A stretch of DNA of 12,737 nucleotides from a bacterium. GTDB lineage: Bacteria; CG2-30-53-67; CG2-30-70-394. Made by a program: the position numbers and the translations under genes. The notes under the pieces are model-generated. The model was not told where the DNA came from and searched no databases. It saw nothing but the letters and a program-made list of their open reading frames with translations. The DNA is taken from the NCBI GenBank assembly GCA_024278555.1, contig JAJRSX010000103.1, positions 1-12,737 of the forward strand. The letters run 5' to 3'. Positions within the stretch are counted from its first letter, which is position 1. The number at the start of each line of letters is the position of its first letter. Of the stretch, positions 1 to 5,800 are shown one piece after another.

Positions 1-406
1 CGTGCGCGTACATCAGGTTCTCGCCGTCGATCTCGCCGCTCCAGGCGGCGATGACCGTGCGGTTGCGCGAGAGCCCTTGAAGCAAGCGGAGCGGGTCCTG
101 CTGAAGATCGGGGCTGAACAGGACCTCGGTGTTGTCGAGCAGCTGCACGTCGCCTGGATGTCGCTCGACGATCTCGCTCAGGATGCGGGGGACGCGCAGC
201 GCGCGCTGCTTCGACGTCAGCTCGAGGAGCCTCTCGGAGAGCTCGAGGTTGACGTTGACGAGCGGCCAGCCGCGCTCCTCGGCGAGGTCACGCAGGGCGC
301 TCGTCTTCCCCGTCCGCGGCGGCCCCACGACGAGGATGAGCCTGTGGTAGACGCCCGCGGCGTCGGGCACCCGTTCGGCGACTCGGTGGGACAAGGGGGC
401 GGCCAT
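1..406 (-). CDS. brxF: BREX type 3 P-loop protein BrxF (partial, C-terminus beyond the left edge)
   Basis: The open frame enters from the left edge and starts at ATG 406-404, giving 135 residues so far. Walker A, GPPRTGKT, is at residues 28-35. A hydrophobic strand ending in LLDN (about 88-92) sits where Walker B is expected. It is followed by FSPDLQQDPLRLLQGLSRNR and TVIAAW (98-122), a conserved-looking pattern that I associate with BrxF. BrxF is a small ATPase-like protein of type 3 BREX anti-phage systems, which in the usual order is followed by brxC, pglXI, a helicase, pglZ and brxA. None of those is visible here. They would lie to the left, downstream of this gene. The ATG directly follows the TAG of the HTH gene, with a G-rich GGAGGGGGG upstream that can serve as ribosome site, so translational coupling is likely. 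The family name is from memory of the motif pattern. A generic small P-loop ATPase is the alternative. Confidence 0.75.
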   Translation of the reverse strand, partial: MAAPLSHRVAERVPDAAGVYHRLILVVGPPRTGKTSALRDLAEERGWPLVNVNLELSERLLELTSKQRALRVPRILSEIVERHPGDVQLLDNTEVLFSPDLQQDPLRLLQGLSRNRTVIAAWSGEIDGENLMYAH

Positions 407-601
407 CTACGCCCCCCCTCCCTGGTGCTCGGCGCGCTTCTGCGCCTCCATCCAGGCGTCGATGTCGTGGTGTTTGAACCGCCACTGCCCGCCCACCTTG
501 AAGCCCGGCAGGTCGCCGCGCTGGACCATCATGTAGGCGGTCCTCTCGGCGATCTTCAGAAGCGCGGCGACCTCCTTGAGGGTCAGGACCTCGTCTTCCA
601 C
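407..601 (-). CDS. Excisionase/MerR-like helix-turn-helix DNA-binding protein
   Basis: The product is a 64-residue protein. Nearly all of it is the excisionase-family HTH_17 fold: LTLKEVAALLKIAERTAYMMVQ (residues 6-27) forms the helix-turn-helix. RGDLPGFKVGGQWRF (28-42) is the wing, and DIDAWM follows at 46-51. I chose the GTG at 601-599 because GGAGGAGG lies six bases upstream. The longer reading from GTG 622 would put this Shine-Dalgarno inside the gene. The stop TAG abuts the brxF ATG with no spacer, so the two are almost certainly one transcription unit. Proteins of this type regulate or direct recombination, and beside a BREX locus it is most simply a transcriptional regulator (inference). 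A phage-type excisionase is the alternative, but no integrase is visible in the window. Confidence 0.8.
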   Translation of the reverse strand: MEDEVLTLKEVAALLKIAERTAYMMVQRGDLPGFKVGGQWRFKHHDIDAWMEAQKRAEHQGGGA

Positions 602-648
602 GATCGACCTCCTCCATGTCACAGCGAAAAATCTGCAATACGTTGCCG

Positions 649-677
649 TTTCTTGCCTGTTATTTCCTGACTGTCAA
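649..677 (-). promoter_or_regulatory. Possible sigma70 promoter for the HTH-brxF unit
   Basis: On the minus strand a perfect -35 hexamer TTGACA (677-672) is followed after 17 bases by AAGAAA (654-649), a poor -10. It lies in the only AT-rich pocket of the left region, about 50 bases ahead of the HTH start. The weak -10 could mean that an activator is needed, or that this is chance. Confidence 0.35.
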
Positions 678-701
678 CCTGTGCCTGTACGAGCCCGTCC
701 C

Positions 702-717
702 GAACAGGACAGAACAG
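702..717. repeat. GAACAG direct repeat, 10-bp period, upstream of the putative promoter
   Basis: GAACAG occurs at 702-707 and 712-717, one helical turn apart, about 25 bases upstream of the putative -35 of the HTH-brxF unit. The spacing suits two protomers bound on one DNA face. It is a candidate operator for the neighbouring HTH proteins, but this rests only on position and spacing. Confidence 0.3.
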
Positions 718-871
718 TCTGCCACGCGGCCCGAAGTGGAGAGCCGGGCGACTGACCACGAAAAGCTTCGCGAGTTGATCCCAGGTAAGCCCCGTGAACC
801 GGCGTAGCTCCATGAGGCGGGCGCCGCTCACGACGTTGTCTGCCGGCGGTGACAAGGCCATTTAGAACCGC

Positions 872-1336
872 TCACTCCTCCGTCCCCACCAGGTACGCCA
901 CCACCGCCGCCCACTCGCTGAAACGCCCGCTGCCGAAGTGGACATGCTCGCCGGGGAACTCGCCGGCGCCGTTTTTCTTGCGGTCGTCGATGAGGTAGTC
1001 GCCGCGGGCGAGCTCCTTGTGGTGGGTGAGGATGAGCCGCTTGTGGGCGACCTCGCCCAGGTGGGTCTGGACCCAGACCACCTTGTCCGCCCACGCCGAC
1101 GGGTTCTTCCACGGCGCGGTGGAGAGGATGTAGGTGTCGAAGCGGGCCGCGAGCCGGTGGTACGCCTCCACCGCGCCGGGGACCGGGTCCATGAGGGCGA
1201 AGATCCCCGGCGCGTCGTCGAGGTGGCCGTCGTACGCCGCGCGCACCGGCGGGTCGAGGCGGGCGATCCCCGAGGGGAAGTCCACCAGGACGTTGTCCAT
1301 GTCCACGTAGAGGATCTTCTTGGGCCACTGCGTCAT
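872..1336 (-). CDS. NT5C-type 5'(3')-deoxyribonucleotidase-like HAD phosphatase
   Basis: The product is a 154-residue HAD-superfamily protein of the cytosolic 5'-nucleotidase C type. It is predicted to dephosphorylate (deoxy)nucleoside monophosphates in the cytoplasm. HAD motif I is DMDNVLVDF, with nucleophile Asp12 and acid/base Asp14. Motif II is LSTAPW with Ser72/Thr73. Lys99 (HKRLIL) and the Asp-Asp pair 117-118 (YLIDDRKKNG) supply motifs III and IV. All key residues are present, and the length is normal for short bacterial and phage members. I chose ATG 1336-1334 because GGAG lies seven bases upstream. The same frame is open further 5' to 1906, but that part encodes the C-terminal half of an unrelated enzyme. 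Stop TGA is 10 bases before the XRE-like remnant, so it may head the HTH-brxF transcription unit. The substrate cannot be read from the sequence. Confidence 0.85.
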   Translation of the reverse strand: MTQWPKKILYVDMDNVLVDFPSGIARLDPPVRAAYDGHLDDAPGIFALMDPVPGAVEAYHRLAARFDTYILSTAPWKNPSAWADKVVWVQTHLGEVAHKRLILTHHKELARGDYLIDDRKKNGAGEFPGEHVHFGSGRFSEWAAVVAYLVGTEE

Positions 1337-1405
1337 GTGGAGTCTCCGGTTGACGAACTCGATTCTTCCTCCGGTCGAAGCGGGGGTGTCAACGTGCCAT
1401 CTCCG

Positions 1406-1998
1406 CAGGGCGCCGGCGAGGGTGGCGAGGGAGTCGCTGTCGCCGGGGGTGTTGGCCCCTTCGAGGATGGCGGCGGCCGGGTCGTCGGGGTGGCGGGCGA
1501 AGAGGTAGCCGGCGGCGGCGATCGCCTCGTGGGCGGCCCAGCCGCGCAGGCGCTCCGGGGTGGTCTGCGGGCCGATGCCGGTGCGCGCCTCGTGGATCGC
1601 CTGCGCCATCATGGTCGCCGTGGGTTCGCTCTGCCGCCGGGCCGCCGCGACCATCGTGGCGAGGACCTCCTCCACCGGGGCGTGGTGGAGGATGCGGACC
1701 ATCCCGGTGGCCATGGCCCCACAGGCAGCCAGCGCAATGGGGTCGCGGTGGGTGAGCTTCGAGTGGGCGACAGCCCACTGCTCCGCACGGTCGATATCGT
1801 CGGCAAACAGGAGGCCGAAGGGGTAGCAGCGCATGTCCGAGCCGCACCCGCCGGCGCTGGCGCCGCCCGCCTGGGACCACGCCACACCCCCCCCAGGGCG
1901 CGACACCCGGCGAGGCAGGCGTTACCCGGGGCGCGGTCGGCGAGGTCGGGCCGGTGCGACCATTCCACGAAGCCGCGGGCGATGCGGCCCATGGCCAT
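1406..1998 (-). pseudogene. ADP-ribosylglycohydrolase (DraG-like) remnant, frameshifted and truncated at both ends
   Basis: Two minus-strand frames together encode the middle and end of a DraG-like ADP-ribosylglycohydrolase. The first, from ATG 1998, reads GRIARGFVEWSHRPDLADRAPGNACLAGCRALGG. It gives way at a run of eight G (forward C-run 1887-1894) to a second frame reading AGGCGSDMRCYPFGLLFADD, then SKLTHRDPIALAACGAMA, and ending in GDSDSLATLAGAL. The final GDSDS matches the C-terminal metal-binding Asp motif of the family. One extra G in the run would join the frames as ALGGGVAWSQAGG. Only about 135 bases separate the start from the next gene, so the N-terminal part with the first metal ligands is absent. 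The usual C-terminal tail after LAGAL is also missing, and the frame runs straight into the nucleotidase region. The homopolymer slip could be a sequence error, but the missing ends could not. Confidence 0.7.
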
Positions 1999-2132
1999 CG
2001 CTCGTTCCCGGTTTCTCAGCGGTCCGCTTCGGTGTGCGGTTGTAACGTGCCTTCCACCGGGCATACCCCGAGCCGCCCGCCTCGTCGCGCCGGCTCTCGC
2101 CGGCCGCGACGATCACCTCAACCCCGGCTGCC

Positions 2133-2853: not shown

Positions 2854-5800
2854 CTATGCCCCCTCCTCCGGGAGGACCTCGCGGAGCTGGTGGACGACCA
2901 CCGTGTAGCGCAGGACGTCGGCCCCCTCCTCCAGGGCGGCGAGCCAGTCGCGGTAGGCGGTCACCGGCTCGGCGCGGTCGGTGAAGAAGCGCGCGAGCGC
3001 CGCACCCACCGACTCGCCGCGGCGGCGGCCGGCGAGGAGGTGGCGGGTGAGCTGGTAGCGGAGGGTGTCGACCTCCTCCAGGAGGTCCGCCCTCGCCCGG
3101 TCCTCCCAGTCGTCGCGCGGCGTCAGGCGGCCGAGACGGCCGGCAAGGGTGTCGAGGTCGAGGCGATCCGCCACCCCCTCCAAGGCCTCGCCGATGGCGC
3201 CGAAGGGGAGGTGGTGGGCGTGGTGGAGGTCGAGGACCTCGAGGATCCCGGCCAAGGCCGGCAGCCGCGCCGCGTGGCGCGCCAGGGTGGCCGGCACCCC
3301 CTCGTGGCGGAGCTCGACGATCCGCGCCTCGTACCGCCGCCCCGCCAGCCCCGCCTCGAAGGCGCGCACCTGCCGCCGTACCTCGCCGATGGCGGTGAGG
3401 GCAGGCCGCTCCTCGGGAGAGAGGTTGAGGAGCCGCCGGGTGAGCTCGGCCAGGAGCGCCTCCTGGCGCAGGTGGAGGTCGTACTGGACCTGCGCCTCGA
3501 TCCGGTTGTCGAGGTTGGCGATCCAGGCGCGGGTGGCGTCGGCGCCGCAGATCGCCTCAGCAAAGAGGTAGGCGTGGGCGATCTCCCACGGCGAGCAGCC
3601 GGTCTCCCGCTCGGTCTCGAAGAAGAAGCAGACGCCGGCCTGGTTGACGATCCGGTTGGCGACCACGGTGGCGATGATCTCCCGCCGGAGGGGGTGGTCG
3701 GCGAAATGGCGGCGGAAGCGGCGCGCCACGCTCTCCGGGAAGTACCCCTCCAGGTAGGGCTCGATCCCCGGGGCATCCACCAGGGGCGAGTCGGTGAGGA
3801 GCGCCTCCAGGCGCATCTTCTCGTAGCCGAGCAGGACGCAGAGGGTGGGGCGCACCAGCCGCCCCTGCGCCGCCACCCGCTCGGCGAGCTCGTCGCCGGT
3901 GGGCACCGCCTCCTCCGCCGCCGGCAGGAACCCCTCCCTCACCCGCGCCTCGATGAGGCGGAGGAAGGGGGCCGGGTGGTCCTGGGAGCGGAGCTCGTCG
4001 AGGGAGACACACGCCGACTGGAGCTCGTTGTCGGCCAGGCAGAGGGCGGAGACCTCGTCGGTGGCCCGCTTCAGGAGCCGATCACGCGCCGCCCGCCCGG
4101 AGAGCTTGCCCGCCTCGACGAGGTGCTGGCACAGGAGCTTGAGGTTGACCTCGTGGTCCGACATATCCACCCCGGCGGAGTTGTCGAGGGCGTCGGTGTT
4201 GATCCGTCCGCCGGCGGCCGCGTACTCCAGCCTGCCGAGCTGGGTGGCGCCGAGGTTGCCCCCCTCGCCCACCACCCGGGCGCGCACCTCGCCGCCGTTC
4301 ACCCGCACCCGGTCGTTCGCCTTGTCGCCCACGTCCACGTTCCGCTCGCTCGACGCCTTGAGGTAGGTGCCGATGCCGCCGTTGTAGAGCAGGTCGACCG
4401 GGGCGGTGAGGAGCAGGCGGATCAGCTCCTCGCCGGAGACCCGCTGCTTGGAGGTGGCGAGCCGTTTGCGCACCGCGGGGGCCAGGTCGATCCGCTTTGC
4501 CTCCCGCTCGAAGACGCCGCCGCCGGCGCTGATCTTGTTCGGGTCGTAGTCCGCCCAGGTGGAGCGGGGGCGGCGGAAGAGGCGCTGCCGCTCGGCAAAG
4601 CTGACCTTCGGATCGGGGTTGGGGTCGAGGAAGATGTGGCGGTGGTTGAAGGCGCCGATGAGCCGGATGTGGCGCGACCGGAGCATGCCGTTACCGAAGA
4701 CGTCGCCGGCCATGTCGCCGACGCCGACGACGGTGAAGTCTTCCGTCTGGATGTCGACGTCGAGCTCGCGGAAGTGGCGGCGGATGCACGCCCAGGCGCC
4801 GCGGGCGGTGATCCCCTCGACCTTGTGGTCGTAGCCGGCCGCGCCCCCGGAGGCGAAGGCGTCGCCGAGCCAGAACCCCATCTCCTCGGCCACCTCGTTG
4901 GCGGCGTCGGAGAGGTGGGCGGTCCCCTTGTCCGCCGCCACCACCAGGTAGGGGTCGTCGCCGTCCTCGACCACCGTGTGGGCCGGGTGGACCACCTGGC
5001 CGCCGACCATGTTGTCGGTCACCGACAACAGCGCCCGGATAAAGGCCTGGTACTGGGCGTGGATGTGGGCGGCCCGCGCCTCCGGCTCGGTCGGCATCCG
5101 GCGGAGGCAGAAGCCACCCTTCGACCCCACCGGCACGATGACGCTGTTCTTCACCGTCTGCGCCTTCATCAGGCCGAGGATCTCGGTGCGGAAGTCGTCG
5201 GGGCGGTCCGAGTGGCTGAGGCCGCCGCGCACCACCGGCCCGCCGCGCAGGTGGCAGCCGTCGAGCTCGGCGCCGTGGACGTAGATCTCCCGCCACGGCC
5301 TGGGCTCGGGCATCCGCTCCACCCGGCTACAGTCGATCTTGATCGCCGCCACCTCCACCCCGGGCTGGAAGTAGTTGGTGCGCACCACCGCCGCCACCAC
5401 GTTCGCCAGGCCGCGGAGGATCTCGTCGTCCGCCAGGTGGGTGACCGCGGCCAGCTCGCGGTTGAAGCGTCGCCGCGCCGCCGCCACCGCCGCTGGCCGC
5501 CCCGCCTCGGCGGCCGGGTCGAGGCGGGCGATGAACAGGGCGACCAGGGCCGCCACCGCCCGCGGGTAGGCGAGGAGGGTCCGCACCACCCCGCTCTCCA
5601 TGAGCGTCGGGGTCACCTGCAGGAGGTAGCCGCGCAGGGTGCGCACCAGGCGGACCTCCGCCGGCGATAGCCCCGCCAGGAGGATCAGGGCGTTGGTCGG
5701 GTCATCCTGCATGTGGCCGGTGAGGGTCCAACCGAGGGCCGCGCACAGGTCGCCACAGCGGCCGCGCACCTGCTCGGCGTCGCCGCCCAGGTGGACCACG

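Follow-up and report, generated by a model that had tools for sequence, protein, structure and literature searches.

A small HTH_17 gene abuts brxF at the promoter-proximal edge of a probable BREX type 3 operon

The stretch of DNA analysed here (hereafter designated the window) makes up all of contig C72 (12,737 bases), with nothing left of position 1. The gene at this end (Table 1) was found to encode BrxF, the P-loop protein of BREX type 3; its product matched the NCBIfam model NF033453 with 168.3 bits (E 8.8e-50; curated cut-off, 50 bits) and the PADLOC BrxF model with 158.9 bits over model positions 1–134 of 158, and it contains all three of the motifs GPPRTGKT, QLLDN, and SRNRTVIAAW. These scores bear out the sequence-only reading, which had recognized a BrxF-like P-loop protein from GPPRTGKT, LLDN, and SRNRTVIAAW and had assigned the locus to BREX type 3, an assignment that also agrees with the relatives continuing into brxC. 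Moreover, the brxF open reading frame (ORF) reaches the window edge without meeting a stop codon, being open to the last base, and only the start of an operon reading leftward off the contig lies in the window, as had likewise been proposed. The 2026 BREX survey places BrxF in an inactive-STAND fold (PMC12839542), and the Walker A sequence GK[ST] is kept in 35 of 35 BrxF sequences, a motif that by itself suggests that BrxF can still bind nucleotide. No BrxF was found in phages and viral contigs.

The gene preceding brxF encodes a small protein that matched Pfam HTH_17 (64.5 bits), TIGR01764 excisionase-family domains, and, narrowly over the cut-off of 80, the MAD1 model NF047737 (82.1 bits); its score against the BldC-family model NF033787 was 20.3 bits, below the cut-off of 77, which leaves it outside that family. 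Its stop codon TAG (407–409) abuts the brxF ATG (404–406) exactly, just as had been read for an excisionase-type HTH gene. The start is most likely GTG at 599–601, rather than the mechanical ORF start at 622, because GGAGGAGGT stands just upstream and because this GTG is in register with the ATG of the orthologues in the related loci L003 and L004.

The sequence-only reading had placed two HTH genes at the head of the locus, the outer one being an XRE-type remnant. Within the 80-aa ORF concerned (619–861), residues 16–48 share 61% identity with a regulator encoded on the Chroococcidiopsis plasmid pCHRO.01, so that a remnant of an HTH regulator is indeed present; only 733–861 resembles the regulator, and the remainder of the ORF falls in noncoding sequence that precedes the HTH gene. 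Three plasmid matches of the fragment adjoin or lie near a TIGR04255 gene, and no close homolog was found elsewhere in the phylum sample. Homology to the window ends at about 646 for L003 and about 597 for L004. Judged by these alignments, the fragment is host flank outside the conserved BREX module, that is, a piece of an unrelated regulator and not a second HTH gene of the locus. Farther into the window (872–2064, minus strand), ADP-ribosylglycohydrolase homology (profile positions 107–274 of 287) continues in frame into a gene for an NT5C-like nucleotidase, and its upstream part contains a frame shift close to a stretch of Cs, so that the ADP-ribosylglycohydrolase looks truncated or frameshifted, or reflects an assembly error.

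Table 1 Features at the left end of the window
Feature	Positions	Strand	Basis
brxF, 5' 135 codons, BREX-3 P-loop protein, cut by contig end	2–406	-	NF033453, PADLOC, relatives
Gene for HTH_17/MAD1-like regulator (64 aa), starting with GTG; its TAG abuts brxF ATG	407–601	-	HTH_17, NF047737
Shine-Dalgarno-like GGAGGAGGT	607–615	-	sequence; putative role
TGCAGATT box, candidate operator	630–637	-	alignment with L003 and L004; putative function
Promoter-like TTGACA (672–677), 17 nt, AAGAAA (649–654)	649–677	-	alignment; weak -10
HTH regulator fragment (type that occurs next to TIGR04255 genes), host flank	733–861	-	plasmid matches

The usual definition of BREX type 3 comprises six genes, namely, brxF, brxC, pglXI, brxHII, pglZ, and brxA, with no HTH_17 leader. 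The present locus departs from this definition by its leader and agrees with it in BrxF and in the operon order of its relatives, the window itself showing only a partial brxF. Thus, brxC follows brxF in L003 (labelled Myxococcota) and L004 (labelled Binatota), whose BrxF proteins are 96% and 89% identical to that of the window, respectively, and the same-genus genome G007 carries HTH, brxF, brxC, and pglXI in this order on a 5-kb contig (L009) and BrxHII (1351 bits) on a separate one. In HTH-headed loci of G008 (L067 and L081), G515 (L083), and G667 (L084), brxF, brxC, pglXI, brxHII, and pglZ stand in order; among the relatives, brxC lies next to brxF in L003, L005, L007, and L009, pglXI is present in those from G007 and G008, and pglZ in L081, L083, and L084.

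Such a continuation was also sought in the source MAG (211 contigs, 3.06 Mb, estimated completeness 100%), which was searched family by family with profiles. No BrxC was found elsewhere in this MAG and no match to PF08665 (PglZ); the best match to the PglXI model was weak (21 bits), and the BrxHII model gave generic helicase matches only (up to 68 bits). Since the contig ends inside brxF and these searches recovered neither brxC nor pglXI, brxHII, or pglZ from the other contigs of the MAG, the rest of the operon is not visible here. It might accordingly be supposed that the genome holds an orphan remnant, in which nothing but the HTH gene and a broken brxF is left and BREX is not functional, as the missing core genes in an assembly estimated to be complete would imply. 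This is unlikely, because the brxF ORF is intact to its last base and stops where the contig stops, and because the contigs of L003, L004, L005, and L007 likewise end at about 1.6 kb or less past brxF, as expected for assembly breaks. The rest of the BREX-3 operon in this organism is expected beyond the contig end.

The recurrence of the leader was analyzed across 35 brxF loci, collected by NF033453 searches over samples of two other groups, to which G007, G011, and the window were added. At 25 of the 35, brxF is directly preceded by an HTH gene in the same orientation, as detected with an HTH profile that was built from 19 HTH proteins of the same loci and is not independent of this count, one locus (L063) being included with only 126 bases of upstream sequence. 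Independent support was given by Pfam HTH_17, matched by all 19 HTHs tested. The 25 HTH-headed loci do not represent 25 independent events, as they include close relatives (the window, L003, and L004; L026, L037, L039, and L040). Among 12 control P-loop loci below the cut-off, an HTH was present at only one, L057, which proved to be a brxF fragment. The small HTH_17 gene is a recurrent leader of BREX-3. The comparison of upstream HTH genes that the sequence-only reading had called for therefore upholds its view of a regulator built into the operon, insofar as the HTH–brxF pair recurs across genomes; the zero spacing from which it had argued is common for the pair and nothing special, typical junctions being TAGATG, taATG, tgATG, or about 9 intervening bases that include GGAG. 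The leader is not essential, since it is missing at 10 of the 35 loci and degenerate in three more (L021, L038, and L054), where brxF remains open.

Distance matrices of BrxF and the HTH proteins were correlated (Mantel r 0.78, p 1e-4, n 19), a value to which shared host phylogeny contributes and which includes near-identical pairs. HTH type and BrxF can nevertheless part, as in the window and G007, whose BrxF proteins are 62% and HTHs 27% identical. None of the six plasmid brxF loci carries the HTH leader. Two of them have a WYL gene in its place that overlaps brxF by 4 bases (L076:2450–2453 and L077:2450–2453, on Roseicitreum and Leisingera plasmids, Rhodobacterales), and neither HTH nor WYL is annotated directly upstream in the other four.

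The region upstream of the leader was most informative in clade C (nine loci), where a MAFFT alignment not anchored on any motif revealed a footprint with pairwise identity of 0.72–0.77 over TTGACA-N17-TAAATT, the spacer containing AACTGT repeats. Identity in the flanks was mostly 0.1–0.4, apart from a further peak (about 0.65) that covers the ribosome-binding site and start. The pattern ACTG-n6-A[CT]TG was present in six of the nine loci, versus 0.12 on average in dinucleotide-shuffled sequences, a count that is descriptive, as the motif had been noticed in the same sequences before counting. The footprint with its direct repeats suggests BldC-like autoregulation in this clade. In the window, the -35 element and its spacing are common to L003 (TTGACA) and L004 (TTGGCA), a comparison of three sequences only, and a TTGCAGATT box is shared by all three, taking the form TTGCAGATTTT in the window and L003; in L004 it belongs to an inverted repeat, AATCTGCA-n6-TGCAGATT. 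The operator assignment in the window is tentative because the -10 element (AAGAAA) is weak, the promoter scan reported nothing over its rule, the left arm of the inverted repeat is degraded, and three sequences were aligned.

When the HTH profile was compared with solved structures, the only match was a weak one, 6AMA (E 0.0053), the complex of BldC with smeA DNA, in which BldC, a protein of 68 residues, is arranged head to tail on direct repeats (PMC5859096). BldC (6AMA/6AMK) is a single-domain MerR-like wHTH protein of 68 aa that binds direct repeats in promoters; the size and single-domain layout of the leader and the direct repeats of clade C would fit a BldC-like autoregulator, whereas the window protein falls far below the BldC-family cut-off, and this binding mode is conjectural here. 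Collectively, with a probability of about 0.7, the window may be regarded as the promoter-proximal edge of a BREX-3 operon, in which an autoregulating HTH leader abuts brxF and the core genes lie past the end of the contig. This leader would most likely bind the repeats in its own promoter and thereby set the level of the whole operon, an autoregulation that is probably repression. The abutting stop and start codons could couple translation, tying BrxF synthesis to the leader, and BrxF probably binds NTP and works with BrxC and PglZ in the BREX complex.

Alternatively, a mobile element carrying BREX could use the HTH protein as its excisionase or recombination directionality factor, the HTH gene lying beside brxF by chance at the element end. 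The matches to TIGR01764 and the structural likeness of BldC to Xis (PMC5859096) would be in keeping with this, as would an ORF about 0.5 kb upstream in L004 that on visual inspection looks like a tyrosine recombinase. We consider this improbable, and no more probable than the orphan remnant, because the HTH–brxF order recurs in at least three groups with no integrase as part of it, and because the HTH gene is closely coupled to brxF, diverges together with it, and is preceded by a promoter footprint. A search for tRNAs at the module border gave none in the window, L003, L004, L006, L009, and L067, and in G007, where an empty insertion site was sought via the tRNA_edit gene, synteny was limited to that gene. 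Still far less probable, and rejected on its neighbours, is the edge of a MADS system with mad1 first: the window HTH belongs to the same small family, also named as a defence-system component, and passes the NCBI MAD1 equivalog cut-off (82.1 vs 80), but it is followed by brxF (168 bits) instead of the mad2 methyltransferase that comes after mad1, the relatives go on with brxC and pglXI, and the MAD1 model matches the BREX-3 leaders too (19 of 19) and therefore does not separate the two settings, so that the MAD1 name alone does not imply MADS.

The control of BREX type 1 by WYL proteins has already been described. BrxR/CapW resemble the present leader as promoter-proximal regulators of a BREX locus; the 64-aa window protein, in contrast, consists of the DNA-binding domain only, and a WYL reading of it was rejected, HTH_17 being its only domain with no WYL ligand-sensing domain. 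We tentatively propose, at somewhat less than even odds, that BREX-3 has a promoter-proximal regulator slot, filled in several phyla by a BldC/MAD1-type wHTH protein oligomerising on direct repeats of its own promoter and on Rhodobacterales plasmids by a WYL protein. If this is true, defence expression would be set by a cooperative autoregulator without a ligand domain. In the literature searched, BREX-3 was nowhere described with an HTH_17 leader and nothing was found on its regulation, although an earlier description may exist in Goldfarb et al. 2015 or in work on MADS itself, of which the searches gave no paper; in the 2026 BREX survey (PMC12839542), the words 'excisionase' and 'MerR' are absent and BrxR appears once, in the reference list. 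The recurrent leader, together with the promoter footprint conserved in one clade, offers a testable regulator and operator, and the NCBI MAD1 model is seen to match BREX-3 leader genes as well.

Several minor observations were made in the related loci. In L004, brxC is similar to that of L003 over about its first 525 bases, and other sequence, from a chimera or an insertion, then takes up the remainder of the contig (L004:11065–11272). G008, G422, G608, and G682 each carry two brxF loci that exceed the family cut-off. The BREX-3 locus L006 has, in the position before brxF, an ORF (5101–5532) that matches PRK00809 weakly (34 bits, under the cut-off), and its operon contains a four-helix-bundle gene, a PDC-S02 gene, and a Ppl-like gene.
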